From an uncultured Actinomycetes bacterium (GTDB taxonomy: Bacteria > Actinomycetota > Acidimicrobiia > Acidimicrobiales > RAAP-2): a stretch of DNA of 40,909 nucleotides. Under the pieces are notes generated by a model. It ran no database searches. It saw only the letters and a program-made list of their open reading frames with translations, and was not told the DNA's origin. Location: assembly GCA_903900235.1 (NCBI GenBank), contig CAIUMH010000077.1, positions 1 to 40,909 on the forward strand, in the 5' to 3' direction. Shown here one piece after another: positions 1,357-10,403 of this stretch (positions are counted from its first letter, which is position 1; each line of letters begins with the position of its first letter). The translations under genes and the position numbers were made by a program.

Positions 1357-3003
1357 ATGGCGGGTGAGTTCGACCGACGATCATTTCTGGCGGGGTCCGG
1401 AGCGCTGGCACTCGGTGGTGGGTATGAGCTCGCCACCGCAGGGACGGCCGGAGCGGTAGTCACCCATGGACGCGGCCATGACGGCATCTCGAGGGCCCGC
1501 GTCAAGCGGGGAGGAACCCTGAGAGTTGGGGTCAATGCCGAGGAGCAGGGGTTCAACCCCGCCACCGGTCGCTTCGACGCTGCAGGCTTCATGATGGCCA
1601 GGACGGTCTACGACCCCCTGTTCGTCATCACCGCCAACGGCGGCGTGGCGCCCTACCTGGCCCAGTCGATGACTCCGAACGCCGACCACACGAAGTGGAC
1701 GGTCACGCTGCGGCCGGGCATCACCTTCCACGACGGTACGCCGCTCGATGCCGATGTGTTGGTGTCGAACTTCACAAGCGGCCTGAACAGTCCATTGGCC
1801 GGCATCGCCATCCAGCCACTGGTGGCTGGAGCGAAGAAGGCCGGTCCGCTCTCGATGACCATCGAGCTCAAGCTGCCTTGGGTCTCATTCCCCTACACCT
1901 ATGCCGCGACCCAGATCGCCTTCGTCTCCGCTCCGTCGATGAACTCCACCCCCAATGGCGGCTCCGATCACCCGGTTGGCACCGGGCCGTTCATCTTCGA
2001 AGACTGGGTACCGAACGATCACTTCACCGTTCGGGCCAACCCGAACTACTGGCGCAAGGGCCTGCCCTACCTCGACCGCATCATCTTCAAACCCATCCCC
2101 GACGAGGCAGCCCGCTACATGGCACTCCAGTCGGGAACCATCGACATCATGCATGCCGCCGACGCGGCCACCATCTCTCAGCTGCGCCAGAACCGTTCGC
2201 TGTCGTATGTCGACAACTCCGGGAAGATGGTCGGGTCGCCCAACGTCAGCTGCTTGCTGCTCAACATGTCGAAGCCACCCTTCAACGACCCGCTCGCCCG
2301 AAAGATCCTGGCCACCGGCATCAGCGCGAAGGCCTACAGCCAGATCATCGACAAGGGGATTAACACCCCCGTCGACGGCATCTACCAGCCTGGTTCGCCG
2401 TGGTACACGAACGTGCCGTACCCGACCTACAACCAGGCTGCTGCAAAGAAGCTCTCGGCCGAGTACCGGACGAAACATGGCCACCCGCTCACCTTCACCA
2501 GTCTCGGCGTCGCTTCACCGCAGGGAGCCAAGCAGGGGGCCTACATCCAGCAGATCCTTAAGAACATCGGCGTGAACCTCAAGCTGACCACGGCCTCGGA
2601 GTCCGAGGTCATCTCCGCTGCCCTCGCCGGCACCTTCGAGGCAGTCGGCTGGCAATCCTTCGGTGGCATCTACCCGGACCTGAACTATGTGTGGTTCTCG
2701 ACCAAGACTCTGCGGATGACCGGTACGTCGCTCAACATCCCCCGCAACAAGGATCCGCAGATCGAGAGTGCCATGGTGTCAGGGATGGGCGAAACCAACC
2801 CCAAGAAGGCTGCGGCCTACTTCGCCAAGGTCAATCAACGGCTCGCTGTCGACCTGCCCTACATCTGGACCAACCGTGCCGTCTGGGCGGTGGCCTCGAC
2901 AGCCAAGGTCCAGAACTGGAACAACCCGACCACGCCCGCCGGCCGTCCTGTCCTCGGGATGGATCAGGGGGTCATCTGGCTTGGGCAGGCCTGGCTCAGC
3001 TGA
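1357..3003 (+). CDS. ABC transporter substrate-binding protein, family 5 (peptide/nickel-type), Tat-exported
   Basis: An extracytoplasmic binding protein of the SBP family 5 (DppA/OppA fold), 548 residues, normal for the family. The N-terminus has a Tat-type signal, FDRRSFLAGSGALALGGG. The body has the family hallmarks: RGGTLRVGVN at the mature start, YDPLFVITANG, W-V-LRPGITFHDGTP, VGTGPF and YWRKGLPYLD. An in-frame TTG exists at 1333, but ATG 1357 is chosen because its product, MAGEFDRRSFL, aligns with MTQEFDRRSFL of the paralogue at 31913-33574. No permease or ATPase gene lies nearby, so it is an orphan binding protein. There is no lipobox cysteine, so it may be soluble or held by other means. 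Its 3' end overlaps the convergent fucosidase gene by 8 bp. The ligand cannot be read from sequence. Confidence 0.92.
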   Translation: MAGEFDRRSFLAGSGALALGGGYELATAGTAGAVVTHGRGHDGISRARVKRGGTLRVGVNAEEQGFNPATGRFDAAGFMMARTVYDPLFVITANGGVAPYLAQSMTPNADHTKWTVTLRPGITFHDGTPLDADVLVSNFTSGLNSPLAGIAIQPLVAGAKKAGPLSMTIELKLPWVSFPYTYAATQIAFVSAPSMNSTPNGGSDHPVGTGPFIFEDWVPNDHFTVRANPNYWRKGLPYLDRIIFKPIPDEAARYMALQSGTIDIMHAADAATISQLRQNRSLSYVDNSGKMVGSPNVSCLLLNMSKPPFNDPLARKILATGISAKAYSQIIDKGINTPVDGIYQPGSPWYTNVPYPTYNQAAAKKLSAEYRTKHGHPLTFTSLGVASPQGAKQGAYIQQILKNIGVNLKLTTASESEVISAALAGTFEAVGWQSFGGIYPDLNYVWFSTKTLRMTGTSLNIPRNKDPQIESAMVSGMGETNPKKAAAYFAKVNQRLAVDLPYIWTNRAVWAVASTAKVQNWNNPTTPAGRPVLGMDQGVIWLGQAWLS

Positions 3004-4450
3004 GCCCGGGTGCCGGCATCACGCCGGTAAGCACCACCGCCACCGGATCAATTTCGTCCGGACCACCAAGGGTGACGCTGAGTCCGGCAGTGGTCTGCTG
3101 GAGATCGAGGGGGCGTCCATCGACGCGACGAGCCGTCGCTCCATCTGCATCGACGACCTCAGCGAGCGTCACCGTCGGCCCAGATGCTCGCACCAGGGCG
3201 ATCACCTCGCCGTCTCGGCGCACGTAGCGGAGCAGGTCACCCTCGACCGTGGTCCCACCGGGGACCAGCCACGGCGTCGACCCGGCCAACGCTGCGCGCA
3301 ACGTGGGGGCGAAGTCGGCCAGCCAACCCAAGCGCTTGAGCTGCTCATCAGGGATTGTGGCGTCGACTCCTCGGGGGCCGACGTTGAGGAGGAGATTGCC
3401 GCCCTTGGCCGCGATGTCCACCACACTGCTCACGAGGTCCTCACGGGTGAGGAAATCATCGGGAGCGGACTCGGCGTTATACCCAAAGGAGTGGTCCATC
3501 CCTCGCACGCACTCCCACGGAGTGGTCTGGATCTCGGCGAAGGTGGTGTACTCCGGCGTGCGCACGTCGAAGTGCGGCGGCCGCGGTGGCACCATGCCGC
3601 CGTTGGGGTCGGCTTGACGTCGTGAGACCCAGTCGATCGCCCTGCGGCCGATCCCCGTCTTGGCCATGGCGAGCAGCGGCGACCACGGCATCCAACGATC
3701 GTTGAGGACACCCTCGGGGACCGTCCGGTAGTAGTCGGCCATGAGCGGCCAAAGTTCTCGCCCCGGAGCGGGCCAGGCGATGTCGTTCCAGAGCACCGAC
3801 GGCTCGTAGCGCTCGATCAGCTCGCGGACCTGGGCCTCGGCATAGGCCGGGTAGTCCCCGCGGGGGATGGCCTGGACCATCGAGCCCATCGAGCCCATCG
3901 GCGTGTCACAGAAGGTCCAGTCAAGGCCGCCCGAGTAGTAGACGCCGAAGCGCATCCCCGCGTCGCGAACCGCTGCCGCCAGCTCACCGACCAGGTCCCT
4001 GCTTGCGTGCCACCCGGGCTTGTACGGGTTCTCGATCGCCGAGGGCCAGAGGCACCACCCGTCATGGTGCTTGGCGACCAGGACGACATAACCCGCCCCG
4101 GTGTCGGCGAAGGCCCGTGCCCAGGCCTCGGGATCCCAGGTAGACAGACCCGCCTCGAAATCGGTGACGAAGGCCTCATAGGGTCGGTCCCCCCAGACCT
4201 CGGCATGGTGTCGAGCCACTGGGGACCCAGGGAACCGAAGGGAGTTTTGATACCACTCGGTGTAGGGCGAGTAGCTGAACGCGTCCCGGCGACCCGAGGT
4301 CAGCAGCTCGCCATAGTCACCGTGCGCCGGAGCAAACCCGGCCACCGAGGCCGGGGTCCAGTGGACGAAGATGCCGAGCTTGGCCGCCCGCCACCACCCC
4401 GGGACCTCGTGCTCTCGCAGTGCCGCCAGCGTCGGATCGACCCGTGCCAT
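2996..4450 (-). CDS. Alpha-L-fucosidase, GH29 family, apparently cytoplasmic
   Basis: A retaining exo-glycosidase that would release L-fucose from glycans or fucosides; 484 residues. GH29 features in order: WWRAAKLGIFVHW (19-31), SPYTEWYQNSLR (61-72), KHHDGWCLWPS (127-137), a YYSGGLDW strand (171-178), and VLWNDIAWP with Asp223 at the position of the Thermotoga maritima nucleophile (VLWND). A C-terminal beta-sandwich follows, about residues 390-484. I see no signal peptide, so it probably acts on imported oligosaccharides. The convergent neighbour is an exported solute-binding protein with an 8-bp overlap; a functional link (sugar capture plus hydrolysis) is possible but unproven. There is no Shine-Dalgarno; a -10-like box 6 nt upstream suggests a leaderless mRNA. 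A TetR remnant lies just upstream. Confidence 0.9.
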   Translation of the reverse strand: MARVDPTLAALREHEVPGWWRAAKLGIFVHWTPASVAGFAPAHGDYGELLTSGRRDAFSYSPYTEWYQNSLRFPGSPVARHHAEVWGDRPYEAFVTDFEAGLSTWDPEAWARAFADTGAGYVVLVAKHHDGWCLWPSAIENPYKPGWHASRDLVGELAAAVRDAGMRFGVYYSGGLDWTFCDTPMGSMGSMVQAIPRGDYPAYAEAQVRELIERYEPSVLWNDIAWPAPGRELWPLMADYYRTVPEGVLNDRWMPWSPLLAMAKTGIGRRAIDWVSRRQADPNGGMVPPRPPHFDVRTPEYTTFAEIQTTPWECVRGMDHSFGYNAESAPDDFLTREDLVSSVVDIAAKGGNLLLNVGPRGVDATIPDEQLKRLGWLADFAPTLRAALAGSTPWLVPGGTTVEGDLLRYVRRDGEVIALVRASGPTVTLAEVVDADGATARRVDGRPLDLQQTTAGLSVTLGGPDEIDPVAVVLTGVMPAPGLS

Positions 4451-5097: not shown

Positions 5098-8000
5098 CTA
5101 GGTCAGAGCCCCCGGGCAGCTGGCCCCGTCATTGCGAGGTGCTGAGGGGAGGTTCCCAACCTTCGAGAAGCTTGGGGTCGAGCCGAGACCGGTGACCCGG
5201 GTGATGTCACCGGTGGCGTTCGACTCGAAGAAGATCGAACTGTCATCGGAACCCGACCAGACCGAGCCATAGCCATGGCTGACATAGCCCGCCGGCAGGT
5301 CGTAGCTGACGTGCTCGTCGCTGCTCAGGTTGATGCCGACGACCTGGGTCGACGTCACCGTCCAGAGCCACTCGCCCTGGATCACGAGGTCCCAGCCGAT
5401 CCTCGAGACGCCGTCGGGCAGCGGGATCTTGGTGGCTCGGTGGGTGTCGACGTCGATCGAGTAGAGGTGGCCTCGACCGCCCACGACCAGGTGGCCGCTG
5501 AAGGGGTCGAAGGCGCCGGCGGGGAACTTGGCCTCGGACCTCGTGGCCGGGAGGCCCTCGACGACGCCGAGGTCGGTCGCCGAGCCGTCGCCGGCGATCC
5601 GCATGAGGTGGTTCTCCGGTCCGGTGAGGTCACGGTTCGCCGTGCCGATGCCGTAGAGGAAGCCGTCGTCAGGCCGGTAGGCGATGGCGTTGACGAAGCC
5701 GTTCTCCTGCCCGAGCGTCGTCCAGGACGAGAAGTCCGTGGTCGACTGCAGCAGGCCGAGGCGCTGCTCGATGTGCATCCCCGGCGTGCAGGCGAGGACG
5801 CCGACCCGGGTCGAGACCGCAGCCTCAGGCCCGGTGCCGACCGCGTTGGTGGCGGTGACGACGAAGCCATAGGTCTTGCCCGGATGGAGCCCGTTCACCG
5901 TGCAGGAGTAGGGCCCGGGGCCCGACACGCTCACGGTGCAGGAGTGCTTGCCCGAGGGATCGCTGACGAGGTAGCTGAGCACCGACGAGCCGCCGTCCCA
6001 GGCAGGGACGTCGAACGACACCGTCGCCGACGTGATCCCGGCCGTGACGCTCGGAGAGGAGGGGACCTCGGGGATCGTCGGGAGGACCGTGACGCTGATG
6101 GTCGAGCTGGCCCGCTGGCCGATCCCGTCGACGACGTCGAAGCTGATCGGGGCGGGCGAGCCCACGTAGTTGTGCGCCGGGGTGAAGGTCACCGTGCCGT
6201 CGGGGTTCACCTCATAGGTCCCGACCCCGTCGACGCTCACCGTCGACTGGGAGCAGGACCCTGACGCCTCGCTCGGTCCACACAGCATGAGCGGGGTCTC
6301 CGCCCACCCGGCGGCCGGGTCGGTCGTGGCGGATGACATCGGGTCGAGGCTCTGGACCACGTTGACGTCGTCGATCGACGTCGCCGGCTGGGCGGTCGGG
6401 GTGCCGACCACCGTCACGGAGATCACCGCCGAGCCCGTGGTGGGGCCTGAGTCGGTGGCCTGGTAGGTCACGGGGGTGACGGTGCCGGTGAAGTCGGTCA
6501 CCGGGGTGAACGAGACGCTGCCGTCGGGGTTGACCACGAAGGCGCCCTCGGGGACCGTGACGGTCGACTGGGCGCAGGCTGGCGGGGCCTCGGAGGGTCC
6601 GCAGAGCCTGAGCGAGGTGGCGTCGAGCGTGTTGCCCGTGGCCGGCTCGTCGTTGGCCAGCGGGTGGAGCGTCGTGGTCGTGTTCTTGGGCACGACCTCG
6701 GCGTCGGGGACCAGGTCGATCAGCTGGGTGTAGAGCGCGTTGATCACGGTCGTGGCGCCGACGAGGACCGGTGCGTCGTTCGACGTCACCGAGCCGCCCG
6801 AGGCCGTCGTGGTGCCAGCGCCGTCGCCGTCGGGGACAGTCGAGGACACGGCGGTAGCGACCGAAGTATCGGGGAAGGTCACTGAGTAGGAGACGTCGGG
6901 GCGCAGGCCGGCGAAGCGATAGGTGCCGTCGGCCTTCGTCGTGGTCGTGTAGTCGTAGCCATCGAGCTGCACGGGGGTCCCATCAGGACCGGTGACCCTC
7001 ACCGGCACTCCGGGCACGGGATTGCCGCTGGTGTCGAGGACGGTGCCAGAGACAGCGCCAGTGCAAGTTTGGGGAGTCGAGGGCTTGACCGTGATGCGGA
7101 GCGCGCTGCCCGGGGTTACGGCAGTGTCGTCGCTGGCAAGCAGGTCGGCGAACGCAATCGGCAGGACCGGCACGGCGTCGTAGCCGCCGGGGCAAGCGTA
7201 GGAGATGGTCGGACTGATGCACAGCTGGGGTGAGTCACCCAGGGAGGTGAGCGAGGCCGTCGTGTCGACATCCGTCGGCGCGTGATCATTCACGCTGATA
7301 GAGAACTTCGGATGAGGTCCTGTCAGGGCGACCGGAAGTCCGGCAAGGTTCACCACGCCATTTGAGGGCACGGAGATGCCCTGCCAACCAGAGACGGCAG
7401 CCCCGGAAGTGTCGAAGACATCCAGCACGGCGGACGCAGATCCGACCCCCAGACTGGGTTGGTTCAGCGTGAAGGTGCGCCACGAAGCGACTCCGCCAGA
7501 GCAGGCATGCGTTGGCGCCAGGTTCGGGAAGTAGGCGCTCGACGACGTCGCCGGAGCGGGGCACCCGACTGATCCGTCAGCCTGAAACGGGATGATCTTG
7601 CCTTGATCGCCGTTCTCCCACAGGCAGTCTGGGGCGGCGGGATTCTGGGTCACCGTGTAGGGGGACGCATCCGTGAACCTCGGCGTGGTGAAGCCGGGGC
7701 ACAGGCCTCCAGCCAGACCAATGGCCACGTCCCAACACCTGACACCAATCGGTACGCCTCTGGCACCCCACACGTTGTAGACCCGTGAACCGACGATCGT
7801 CGCTGGGCCCGGGTAGGGCACCAGGTCACTCCCCGCTGCAGCAAGGAACGCGACAGAGGTCGGCGAGGCGATGGCAGACCCATCACGAGAGAAACATGAC
7901 TGCTTGTTGTCCCTCGAATAGAGGCAGATCGCCCCCTGGCTGCTCGCCGTCGGTGGGAACACCATGGTCTTGTTGAGGGCGATGCTCTGCACCTGCTGGC

Positions 8001-9135
8001 CGCCACTTGGCCAACCGGCACACACCGTCTTGGTGGTGGGATCGAAGCACCAGAGGACGGAGTACCCACTCGAGGCGGGCGGATAGTTGAAGAGGAAGAG
8101 CCTCCCCTCGAACGACTGGAAGTAGCCGTACGCCATGATGCGCGCTTCGTCGGGGCGCCCTGTCTGGAGCGAGAATGGCTGCCCCGGGCACAACCCACCC
8201 TGGCCATCGTTGGCCCGCGGGTCGACACAGCCGATCGACGCGCTGACGCCGGCCTGCATCGAGTTGTCGAGGTACAACAGCCCGCCGTATTCAGTCATGG
8301 GGAGGGGGCGGGCGTCGCTGACCCCCACCGCGATCGCGTCGCCTGTCCGGAGAAACGCCGACCCAATCGTCCCGCCGCACAGACTTGGGGTCGTCAGGTC
8401 AGAGATGTCGACGCACAGGAAACCGGATCCGAGTGCGACCGAGTAGTCGGCGATCCACACGTGGTGGTAGCGCTCGTCCACCCAACCGGACGTCTGGGTG
8501 TTGCGTGCGAGACCGGTCAGGTTCGTGATGTTCAGTGGCCAGCTGCCCGAGCACGTCGAACCCGACACGTTGTGGCAGTCCAGCAGCTGAACCTGCAGGT
8601 GCGTGAGATTGAAGACATGACCGTCAGCATCGAAGAAGACGTCCCAACCATCCCCAGTCTTCGAGGCGATGGTGTTTGACGCACCTGAGCTGAGTGGCAC
8701 CGTCTCCGTGGTCGTGACCGCCTGCTTGCCATCGATGATGCCGCCTGATGCGTAGGAGCCCCGAGCGCGGACGTACTGCACCCGACCCCAGGCATCTGGT
8801 GTGCTTGGTGGGACGTCGGAGAAGGCCACCCCATCGGTGGAGTACTGGACCTTCCAGCCCTCAGGCGCCCTGATCTGGCTCGGCGACGTGAGGTGGACGA
8901 CGGTTGGATCGATCTTTTCCTGCAACCAGCGCGTGGCGGTGCCGGCACCGTAGAGCGGAGAGGTCACCGTCAGGTTGACGGTGCCACCGTCGACCACCGT
9001 CGAGGGTGTCGCAGTGTGACCGAGCGTCGTCCCGGCTGCGCCCGCTGACATGGCTGGCGTGGTGAGCAGCAGGGCCGAGGCCAGTGCGGCGATGAGTCGG
9101 GCAGGACGGTGCAGGGTACGAATCATGGTCGCCAT
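5098..9135 (-). CDS. Large secreted multidomain protein: Cys-paired repeat region, carboxypeptidase-regulatory-like domain, two CshA-type repeats, FN3, propeller-like tail
   Basis: A 1345-residue Sec-exported protein; its role is unknown, probably surface adhesion or matrix. Residues 1-34 are a classical signal peptide (RPAR, hydrophobic core, cleavage near SAGAA). Residues ~160-530 hold seven Cys pairs (187/195, 241/253, 303/316, 363/372, 404/414, 467/479, 504/525), four of them C-[VFW]-D. Residues ~690-750 resemble a carboxypeptidase regulatory-like/SdrD-B domain (GTVLDTSGNPVPGVPVRV). Two CshA-type fibril repeats follow (~838-908 and ~945-1017), each with LCGPSEA...C.QSTV and a VNPDG-V-FTP core. 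A fibronectin III domain spans ~1020-1110. The tail (1118-1345) resembles DUF6923-type propellers (AYRPDDGFLYGIG, GAFDPFSGHLVVGG). There is no LPXTG or C-terminal membrane anchor, so it is probably released or held non-covalently. An alternative start is ATG 9126. A hairpin terminator follows. A tandem TetR gene lies directly upstream on the same strand. Confidence 0.85.
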   Translation of the reverse strand: MATMIRTLHRPARLIAALASALLLTTPAMSAGAAGTTLGHTATPSTVVDGGTVNLTVTSPLYGAGTATRWLQEKIDPTVVHLTSPSQIRAPEGWKVQYSTDGVAFSDVPPSTPDAWGRVQYVRARGSYASGGIIDGKQAVTTTETVPLSSGASNTIASKTGDGWDVFFDADGHVFNLTHLQVQLLDCHNVSGSTCSGSWPLNITNLTGLARNTQTSGWVDERYHHVWIADYSVALGSGFLCVDISDLTTPSLCGGTIGSAFLRTGDAIAVGVSDARPLPMTEYGGLLYLDNSMQAGVSASIGCVDPRANDGQGGLCPGQPFSLQTGRPDEARIMAYGYFQSFEGRLFLFNYPPASSGYSVLWCFDPTTKTVCAGWPSGGQQVQSIALNKTMVFPPTASSQGAICLYSRDNKQSCFSRDGSAIASPTSVAFLAAAGSDLVPYPGPATIVGSRVYNVWGARGVPIGVRCWDVAIGLAGGLCPGFTTPRFTDASPYTVTQNPAAPDCLWENGDQGKIIPFQADGSVGCPAPATSSSAYFPNLAPTHACSGGVASWRTFTLNQPSLGVGSASAVLDVFDTSGAAVSGWQGISVPSNGVVNLAGLPVALTGPHPKFSISVNDHAPTDVDTTASLTSLGDSPQLCISPTISYACPGGYDAVPVLPIAFADLLASDDTAVTPGSALRITVKPSTPQTCTGAVSGTVLDTSGNPVPGVPVRVTGPDGTPVQLDGYDYTTTTKADGTYRFAGLRPDVSYSVTFPDTSVATAVSSTVPDGDGAGTTTASGGSVTSNDAPVLVGATTVINALYTQLIDLVPDAEVVPKNTTTTLHPLANDEPATGNTLDATSLRLCGPSEAPPACAQSTVTVPEGAFVVNPDGSVSFTPVTDFTGTVTPVTYQATDSGPTTGSAVISVTVVGTPTAQPATSIDDVNVVQSLDPMSSATTDPAAGWAETPLMLCGPSEASGSCSQSTVSVDGVGTYEVNPDGTVTFTPAHNYVGSPAPISFDVVDGIGQRASSTISVTVLPTIPEVPSSPSVTAGITSATVSFDVPAWDGGSSVLSYLVSDPSGKHSCTVSVSGPGPYSCTVNGLHPGKTYGFVVTATNAVGTGPEAAVSTRVGVLACTPGMHIEQRLGLLQSTTDFSSWTTLGQENGFVNAIAYRPDDGFLYGIGTANRDLTGPENHLMRIAGDGSATDLGVVEGLPATRSEAKFPAGAFDPFSGHLVVGGRGHLYSIDVDTHRATKIPLPDGVSRIGWDLVIQGEWLWTVTSTQVVGINLSSDEHVSYDLPAGYVSHGYGSVWSGSDDSSIFFESNATGDITRVTGLGSTPSFSKVGNLPSAPRNDGASCPGALT

Positions 9136-9197: not shown

Positions 9198-10403
9198 TCA
9201 GTGCGGTGCGGTGGCGACGAGGGTCTCGGTGACGCAGGCGAAGGGGAGGTCTCTGACGTCGGGGCGGAAGAAGGCCACCACCACCATGCCGTTTCCGAGC
9301 GCGTACTCCGAGTGGAGGAACGCCGTCGCCCCCCGACCGCCGGAGAGCTGGTCGAAGGATCGAGCCTCCTCGGATTCGATCAGCTCTGCGAAGTCGGCAT
9401 CGAAGCCCGCCAAACGGCCGGTCTCGAGGGCCAGCACTGCCATCTTGGCGATCACCGGGTTCTGCATCTCACGCCACGCGAGCGCCTCGGCGAGGGTCGG
9501 GCCGATCTCGAGCGCGCTCTCGGCAATGAAGGCGCCGATGGCGGCCATGCCTCGGCCCCACATCTCGGTGGTCACGCGGCGAAACAGCGCGGCCTTGGAC
9601 GGGAAGCGACCCATGACGAAGCCGCTCGACACCTCCGCCTTCCGGCAGATCCGGGCGATGGTGGTGGCGTGGTAGCCGACCTCGCCCACGCTGATGGCGG
9701 TGGCTTGCATGACCCGCTCGAGACGGTCGTCTGCGACGTCGAACACATAGAGGTAGAGGTACTCGGCGATCCGATCCCTCGGCGTCCCGATGGGCTCAGT
9801 CGGGGCGACCAGAGCCCGGTGATAGCGACGGAACTCCTCCTCGAGCTCGGTCTCCTTTGCCCAGTTTCGCCGGGCCAACACCAGCAGCCCCAAGGCCACG
9901 AACACGCAGGTCGCCGCCACGGTGGCCTCGACCTCACCGCCCGACGCCTCAGGATCGAGCAGTCGGGCGAGTCCAGCATCGACGTCGTCGCGCACGATGA
10001 TGGTGGCACGGGGATCGACCATTGCTGCCTGGATCATCTCGATGGCGGCCAGCAGGGTCGCCGAGGGGCGAGCGAGGCGAGCCATCGTCTCCACGAACCG
10101 CTGCTCGTCGAGTGTGTGGGTGACGCTTTCGACTAGCGCCACGAGCAGACCGTCGAGCTCCGGCCAGAGCTGCTCGGACCATACGCTGGCCACCAGGTCG
10201 TCGAGGTGTTCGAAGCGCGTGTAGATGGCCCCGTAGGACAGGTTCGCCCGCTCACTTACCGACCGGGCGCCCAGTCCGTCCCATCCCAACTCCGCCAACG
10301 CGTCGATGGCTCCGGTCCTCAGCGCATCGTCGTTGCGCGTCCGCCGGGCGATGCGGCGCTGCCCAGGGGCAGCGAGGGTGCCACCAGAGACCGAGTCATC
10401 CAT
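9198..10403 (-). CDS. Tandem TetR/AcrR-family transcriptional regulator (two HTH domains in one chain)
   Basis: 401 residues, about twice a normal TetR. The first HTH is at ~20-75 (GAIDALAELGWDGLGARSVS then RANLSYGAIYTRFEHLDDLV), followed by a ligand domain with AAIEMIQAAMVDPR. A second HTH is at ~225-280 (QATAISVGEVGYHATTIARI then CRKAEVSSGFVMGRFPSKAA), followed by a second ligand domain. One chain could thus form an intramolecular pseudo-dimer or bind two half-sites. It probably represses its own gene and perhaps the divergent CoA-transferase unit or the downstream exported-protein gene; this is inference. No Shine-Dalgarno is seen; a -10 box sits 6 nt before the ATG and an imperfect palindrome just upstream. 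A degraded relative is found at 4463-4984, on the other side of the exported-protein gene. Confidence 0.88.
   Translation of the reverse strand: MDDSVSGGTLAAPGQRRIARRTRNDDALRTGAIDALAELGWDGLGARSVSERANLSYGAIYTRFEHLDDLVASVWSEQLWPELDGLLVALVESVTHTLDEQRFVETMARLARPSATLLAAIEMIQAAMVDPRATIIVRDDVDAGLARLLDPEASGGEVEATVAATCVFVALGLLVLARRNWAKETELEEEFRRYHRALVAPTEPIGTPRDRIAEYLYLYVFDVADDRLERVMQATAISVGEVGYHATTIARICRKAEVSSGFVMGRFPSKAALFRRVTTEMWGRGMAAIGAFIAESALEIGPTLAEALAWREMQNPVIAKMAVLALETGRLAGFDADFAELIESEEARSFDQLSGGRGATAFLHSEYALGNGMVVVAFFRPDVRDLPFACVTETLVATAPH

Follow-up and report, generated by a model that had tools for sequence, protein, structure and literature searches.

A predicted seven-bladed beta-propeller, probably clasped by one disulfide per blade, as a candidate recognition head of actinobacterial surface proteins

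Introduction

What does the first half of a large secreted protein form, and what might it do for the cell, when family libraries annotate only the second half? This question is raised by a 40,909-nucleotide stretch of DNA from an uncultured Actinomycetes bacterium of the Acidimicrobiales (contig CAIUMH010000077.1, assembly GCA_903900235.1), the whole of which is here called the window. One of its genes encodes a multidomain protein whose Pfam and NCBIfam matches are confined to the second half, with nothing over cut-off in residues 1-690 in either library. The first half contains cysteines at 187, 195, 241, 253, 303, 316, 363, 372, 404, 414, 467, 479, 504 and 525, in which an initial annotation, made from the DNA alone, had seen seven regularly placed pairs and, perhaps, a propeller of seven blades with a disulfide in each. 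Here we propose that this region is probably a disulfide-clasped seven-bladed beta-propeller acting as the ligand-recognising head of an adhesin, either surface-bound or secreted, a reading in which we infer the bonds, the adhesive role and the binding site.

Predicted fold

Translation confirmed all fourteen cysteines, and the regular pairing held on measurement: gaps within pairs are 8-21 residues and those between pairs 25-53 in the window protein, and four pairs, beginning at 241, 303, 363 and 467, start with C-[VFW]-D. When the first and last cysteines were fixed and the other 12 shuffled, all within-pair gaps were shorter than the between-pair gaps in 90 of 200,000 random placements.

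Structure prediction of residues 36-690, the span put forward for modelling by the initial annotation, returned a propeller. AlphaFold2, given an input alignment of seven sequences, reached a predicted local distance difference test score (pLDDT) of 66.7 and a predicted template modelling score (pTM) of 0.52 on this span, and 64.2 and 0.70, respectively, on residues 152-550. Compared with solved structures using VIA-align 2, in which rows within one Z count as ties, the long model placed YncE first (Z 20.6 over 284 residues at 3.4 Å) and the short model placed Photorhabdus PLL first (Z 18.6 over 301 residues at 4.2 Å), both of which we take to be seven-bladed. The pTM of 0.70, together with Z values of about 18-20 against solved propellers, thus lends support to the guessed seven-bladed fold. 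Blade number was taken from Z, strands and cysteine pairs; Foldseek was not used for it. GH43 enzymes and sialidases top the Foldseek list but are absent from the best 50 VIA-align rows of either model, and were set aside. The Foldseek rows also include particle proteins of phages P22 and Sf6. The models support the assignment of residues about 155-530 as a predicted seven-bladed beta-propeller with mostly four-stranded blades.

Within the short model, blades 1-4 and 6 have their first cysteine in strand 3 and their second directly after a strand 4 of 1-2 residues; blade 5 has its two cysteines in neighbouring strands, and blade 7 has Cys504 in strand 2 and Cys525 in coil. Placement is thus alike in blades 1-4 and 6, and the pair of blade 7 is positioned differently along the strands from all the others. 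When the blade profiles were compared with one another (21 pairs), 3-4, 3-6 and 4-6 matched at 90-96% probability, followed by 1-3 at 26%, 1-4 at 13% and the rest at about 8% or less, with all 35 comparisons of blade against non-blade segments at ≤1.4%; blades 3, 4 and 6 are thus clearly alike, whereas a single repeat running through all seven is not detectable in the sequence.

Conservation and pairing of the cysteines

Searches for the domain (L and G numbers below are our labels for loci and genomes) detected it in 6 of 148 near relatives, 4 of 396 genomes of the phylum, 23 of 397 of the order and 24 of 395 of the class, the window's own genome being counted in each; relatives of G456 gave 4 of 101, and those of G827 gave 11 of 119. 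These genome sets overlap, and four different queries were used (the window protein, A2, A1 and A5). Named genomes contributed six loci, five from metagenome-assembled genomes (MAGs) that bear an actinobacterial label, two of these from one MAG, and one from an Archangium-labelled MAG. This last carrier, L013, the only one there without an actinobacterial label, has a Cys-rich repeat tail and may reflect transfer or mis-binning. Plasmids gave no tblastn match, and of 23 pattern hits on viral contigs none was a relative. The window genome has one domain match and G083 four. G083 is a genome of 1.4 Mb; two of its four matches (L042, L047) form a tandem and have Thr-rich stretches and tails reading LAFTG, an ending shared by a third match, L005. 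In L061 (G1109:C26) the propeller lies within a 4905-residue open frame, longer than any other among the matches listed, and DGGVFAFGDA-type repeats follow in the frames of L007, L025, L067, L068 and L069.

Pooling and de-duplication left 55 open frames besides the window with at least part of the domain. The 44 rows analysed below comprise the window and 43 of these frames, the other 12 being left out as covering fewer than 355 of 388 profile positions; L010 and L061 are near-copies (closest in the tree, with the highest pairwise identity, 87.6%), and a single MAG is the source of both L010 and L011. Median pairwise identity is 24%, or 20% without the shared cysteines.

Against this divergent background the cysteines are nearly invariant. 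A MAFFT alignment places 13 of the 14 in all 44 rows and Cys195 in 43; hmmalign places 12 in all 44, Cys187 in 43 and Cys195 in 42. Averaged over the 15 cysteines of the region (the 14 and Cys545), the share of rows that have the window's residue rounds to 100%, with tryptophan the next residue type at 42%. By MAFFT the only other invariant positions are Cys545 (36/44 rows by hmmalign), Asp162, His179 and Tyr493. Several apparent losses proved to be alignment slips: Cys195 and Cys253 in L013, Cys316 in L044 and Cys253 in L017, where both cysteines are present on reading the stretch, and a gap at blade 1 of L031 under hmmalign, where the frame holds the blade with both its cysteines. The sole loss among the rows is in L028, which has no Cys195 but a new cysteine at position 175, in strand 2 of blade 1 of the window model. 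G827 also contains a second, interrupted copy (L034), from which the second cysteine of blade 6 has really been lost. This second Tad-propeller copy (L053:7875-11282) lies directly after the first and is split over two frames.

Additional cysteines are also distributed in a manner suggestive of pairing. No extra cysteine occurs in the region in 24 of the 44 rows and exactly two occur in nine; ten rows, all of them of the Tad-pilin type described below, have one beside Cys545, and L028 has its one replacement. A cysteine lies 87-103 residues downstream of Cys545 in all 34 non-Tad rows. In all ten Tad rows this downstream cysteine is gone and another lies two residues from Cys545, before it in nine and after it in L033. 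Across the 44 rows the length within pairs varies from 5 to 28 residues and that between pairs from 20 to 209, and this low within-pair against high between-pair variation favours bonds inside the blades. Paired gains and losses, partner replacement and the length pattern are the traces expected of local disulfides, and at the level of sequence they support such bonds. Together with the invariant pairs and the strand-3/strand-4 placement in five blades, they argue for the one disulfide per blade that the initial annotation had guessed.

Two other arrangements of the cysteines were weighed against this. The first, disulfides between neighbouring blades that would stitch the ring by joining the second cysteine of one blade to the first of the next, is compatible with sequence order alone, but the lengths such bonds would span reach 209 residues whereas those within pairs are ≤28, the replacement cysteine of L028 lies in the same blade, and five blades have their pair at the two ends of the strand 3 - strand 4 hairpin; we regard it as very unlikely. 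The second, that the cysteines serve as metal ligands or in redox chemistry and form no disulfides at all, would also account for their conservation, as ligand cysteines would be conserved too. It is weakened by the paired gains and losses and the partner replacement, by the 5-28-residue separation of the pairs with no tight clusters, and by the export of the protein in an organism whose genome has oxidising machinery (over cut-off, a single VKOR match and four of the DSBA type), and we give it the least credence of the readings considered.

Family searches and the candidate site

The initial annotation had not recognised the region as a named family, and our searches bear this out, none of Pfam, NCBIfam, PHROGs or PDB sequences giving a credible match. 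Curated propeller families in Pfam and NCBIfam (WD40, Kelch, NHL, LVIVD and others) had no match over cut-off in residues 150-540 of the window protein. Pfam scans of the ten propeller sequences of the A2 set (the window and nine relatives) gave at best DUF6283 at E 0.0082 (16.7 bits against a cut-off of 27), and LVIVD at E 0.1 in one of the ten. PHROGs gave no match in residues 36-690. PDB sequence searches with the single protein, a 10-row and a 29-row profile found no credible relative; the only row from the 29-row profile, a 36-residue Yorkie homolog at E 0.92, was taken as chance. In the open-licence literature searched, neither a description of the family nor a bacterial seven-bladed propeller with all blades clasped was found. 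The principle of intrablade disulfide clasping is already known; the fully clasped bacterial seven-bladed version is the element that we have not found in print.

In the MAFFT alignment Asp162, His179 and Tyr493 are the only invariant residues other than cysteines. In the model Asp162 and Tyr493 immediately precede the first strands of blades 1 and 7, respectively, and His179 closes the second strand of blade 1; from propeller topology these positions presumably share a face. Judged by strand order, the three residues on this face of adjoining blades 7 and 1 mark a possible site, the likeliest one for a ligand or metal. By analogy the three residues may be structural instead: in WD40 blades an Asp-His network is structural.

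Three invariant non-cysteine residues (by MAFFT) would also suit a lyase, a hydrolase or some other enzyme with the same propeller and disulfides and with Asp162, His179 and Tyr493 as catalytic residues, and some structural neighbours are indeed enzymes, such as virginiamycin B lyase (Z 19.8). Set against this, the domains that accompany the propeller are of the stalk, anchor and pilin kinds, the ten sequences scanned with Pfam show no enzyme family over the propeller, and the phosphatase N-terminal-domain models PF16656 and PF16655 match 2 and 1 of 21 non-Tad rows, respectively, at E 3.6e-6 or weaker, so that an enzymatic role appears unlikely.

Carrier proteins

Whole-frame Pfam scans cover all 44 rows, although many frames end at the locus edge. 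The propeller is carried on stalk-type proteins in 34 rows and is fused to the N-terminus of a Tad-pilus minor pilin in the other ten (PF13400 over cut-off in L036, L044, L033, L076, L078, L045, L083, L032, L082 and L037). PF13400 is also over cut-off in the partial frame L040, making 11 relatives' frames in all, four of the ten proteins in one scan and seven of the ten in another; among further frames of partial coverage, L085 and L090 match below cut-off and L039 has no match. None of the other 34 rows, the window included, has a PF13400 match (L048 being scanned via its longer copy L035); they were covered as groups of 13 and 21. The ten Tad rows form one fork of the 44-row tree, in which 26 rows are unlabelled, with support 90/81, which is below the starred level; the tree was rooted at its midpoint and does not give the direction of change between Tad and stalk carriers.

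CshA repeats occur in ten of the 34 non-Tad rows (the window, L003, L004, L008, L009, L010, L012, L021 and two from the group of 21); L003 to L012 in this list are six of seven close relatives scanned. The remaining non-Tad rows have Ig, PKD, fn3, DUF6923, DUF11 and CarboxypepD_reg-type domains, some under cut-off, or nothing. Anchor models pass the cut-offs of Pfam and NCBIfam in L021 and that of NCBIfam in L012. LPXTG-like or LAXTG-like tails were seen by eye in L005, L022, L023, L030, L042, L047, L072 and L077, and a Pfam scan of 21 non-Tad rows, which include L047 and L072, contained no anchor model. Regular-expression matches resembling LPXTG in L003 and L063 were not counted, the motif being internal and the frames ending at the locus edge. 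One sortase is encoded in the window genome.

Eleven stretches are of the Tad type (L053-L056 and L093-L099), and upstream genes were tested in nine, L054 and L056 being left out. TadE (PF07811) lies directly upstream in five of the nine, as two frames in L053, L093, L095 and L097 and as one in L055; in L094, L096, L098 and L099 the single upstream frame tested in each showed no TadE.

The occurrence of the same head on two delivery systems argues for a role in recognition. The contrary proposal, that the domain is a structural spacer or coat element without a specific ligand, draws on the fact that, beyond the cysteines and three residues, no position is invariant in the 44 rows. The patchy distribution (24 of 395 class genomes, as above) and the location after TadE genes fit a coat less well than a variable head for recognition, and we consider a mere spacer improbable.

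Gene and surroundings

The features of the gene are collected in Table 1. In the N-terminal domain, AlphaFold pLDDT is 79-91 in 10-residue blocks over residues 56-145; this domain is matched in a subset of relatives only, many aligning to the profile from position 90 or later. The cysteines that follow the fourteen in the window protein are 545, 639, 648 and 691. CshA matches in the second half reach E 1.7e-21 with PF19076 and E 3.6e-25 with TIGR04225. DUF6923, a repeat of unknown function, may represent a second propeller-like domain in the protein.

Table 1. Features of the window gene, with their positions in the window and the basis of each assignment
Feature	Residues	Position	Strand	Basis
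Whole gene, 1345-residue secreted multidomain protein		5098..9135	-	Open reading frame and domain scans
Signal-peptide-like N-terminus	1-35	9031..9135	-	Judged by eye from a basic start, a hydrophobic stretch and small residues
N-terminal beta domain (Ig-like by eye)	36-150	8686..9030	-	AlphaFold model
Predicted blade 1, Cys187/Cys195, with GDGW and His179	156-205	8521..8670	-	Model, alignment
Candidate site residue Asp162	162	8650..8652	-	44/44 rows MAFFT, 43/44 hmmalign
Candidate site residue His179	179	8599..8601	-	44/44 rows MAFFT, 43/44 hmmalign
Predicted blade 2, Cys241/Cys253	206-262	8350..8520	-	Model, alignment
Predicted blade 3, Cys303/Cys316	268-325	8161..8334	-	Model, alignment, blade profiles
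Predicted blade 4, Cys363/Cys372	330-380	7996..8148	-	Model, alignment, blade profiles
Predicted blade 5, Cys404/Cys414	384-430	7846..7986	-	Model, alignment
Predicted blade 6, Cys467/Cys479	436-486	7678..7830	-	Model, alignment, blade profiles
Predicted blade 7, Cys504/Cys525, with Tyr493	489-533	7537..7671	-	Model, alignment
Candidate site residue Tyr493	493	7657..7659	-	44/44 rows MAFFT, 43/44 hmmalign
Beta domain after propeller, probable Cys545/Cys639 bond	545-640	7216..7503	-	Model and Cys comparison
CarboxypepD_reg (PF13620)	695-772	6820..7053	-	Pfam
CshA repeat (PF19076/TIGR04225), better of two stretches	912-1017	6085..6402	-	Pfam, NCBIfam
fn3 (PF00041)	1027-1109	5809..6057	-	Pfam
DUF6923 (PF21959)	1134-1342	5110..5736	-	Pfam

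Downstream on the same strand lies a gene for an Alpha-L-fucosidase (2996-4450, -; PF01120, E 8.3e-65). Fucose is bound by some seven-bladed lectins. On the other side, 9198-10403 (-) encodes a 401-residue protein with a TetR_N match only at residues 234-277, the first half of which also looks TetR-like by eye.

Discussion

The reading we prefer, a clasped propeller serving as an adhesin head, can be set out as a putative mechanism. Each blade of the propeller would be closed by its own disulfide, which in blades 1-4 and 6 would tie strand 3 to the residue just past the short strand 4, in blade 5 would join two neighbouring strands, and in blade 7 would link strand 2 with a point past strand 3. 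Since all these bonds would be local and sequential, the domain could lock blade by blade on leaving the secretion channel, and once complete the disc would be expected to resist proteases and pulling. In the window protein the disc would form a recognition head, followed by a beta-sandwich neck and then by the CarboxypepD_reg/CshA/fn3 stalk, whilst in relatives the same head would be borne either by proteins with sortase-like tails or by Tad minor pilins, which would place it in the pilus tip.

A number of observations weigh against this reading. The models were built on seven sequences only and have a mean pLDDT of 64-67, and the best 50 Foldseek rows mix several kinds of propeller at a query TM (template modelling score) of 0.19-0.33. 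By profile only blades 3, 4 and 6 match one another, blade 1 being weak and blades 2, 5 and 7 undetected. The search profiles contained the cysteines, so that relatives lacking them would be under-sampled. After the partner of Cys545, 20 of the 34 non-Tad rows have a further cysteine (in the window Cys648, then Cys691), and the window genome has no match to PF13462. As regards the carriers, CshA is limited to ten of the 34 non-Tad rows, even allowing for truncated frames; the tails of L005, L022, L023, L030 and L042 match no anchor model; inspection by eye shows no sortase-like tail on the window protein, and neither an anchor model nor Tad (PF13400/PF07811) matches it; and the window genome has no match to PF13400.

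Comparison with known systems places the window protein close to several but identical with none. The Photorhabdus PLL/PHL lectins and E. coli YncE have a common fold with the predicted propeller at about 10% identity and, to our knowledge, do not have one disulfide per blade. CshA-type fibrillar adhesins have CshA repeats in the stalk, in common with the window protein, but the latter has this propeller as its head and no LPXTG sortase tail. PfCyRPA of Plasmodium, according to PMC5349852, is a six-bladed propeller in which sequential intrablade disulfides stabilise five of the six blades. It thus resembles the window propeller in its intrablade bonds, as proposed here, and differs in having six blades, a sialidase-like fold, a eukaryotic origin and one blade unbonded (PMC5349852); PDB profile searches with the window propeller gave no sequence match to it.

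For the pilin-borne relatives the nearest counterpart is in Myxococcus, where the tips of Tad pili (Kil Tips) are, according to PMC12075869, complexes of minor pilins, with the variable exposed domain of the larger minor pilin probably recognising prey. The ten Tad rows are similar in combining a Tad N-terminus with a large exposed head, with TadE upstream in five of nine neighbourhoods, and the gene order TadE-TadE-propeller looks like the Myxococcus tip plan. They differ in that the word 'propeller' occurs 0 times in the main text of PMC12075869, and the window protein itself is no pilin.

More tentatively, and with rather less confidence than we attach to the adhesin head itself, we suggest that the relatives constitute an unnamed superfamily of fully clasped propellers, an interchangeable actinobacterial head that may have been passed, perhaps once, between stalk or sortase proteins and Tad tips with the change of one neck-cysteine partner, and that would have in common an Asp-His-Tyr site at the seam of blades 7 and 1.

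A region that was blank in the family libraries searched now has a predicted shape and a proposed job. Complete blade-by-blade clasping would, as a design rule, suit propellers that need to survive outside the cell, and the findings hint at what may stand at the ends of some Tad pili and CshA-like surface proteins in actinobacteria. Questions of ligand, attachment and cell contact thereby become approachable through one recombinant domain.

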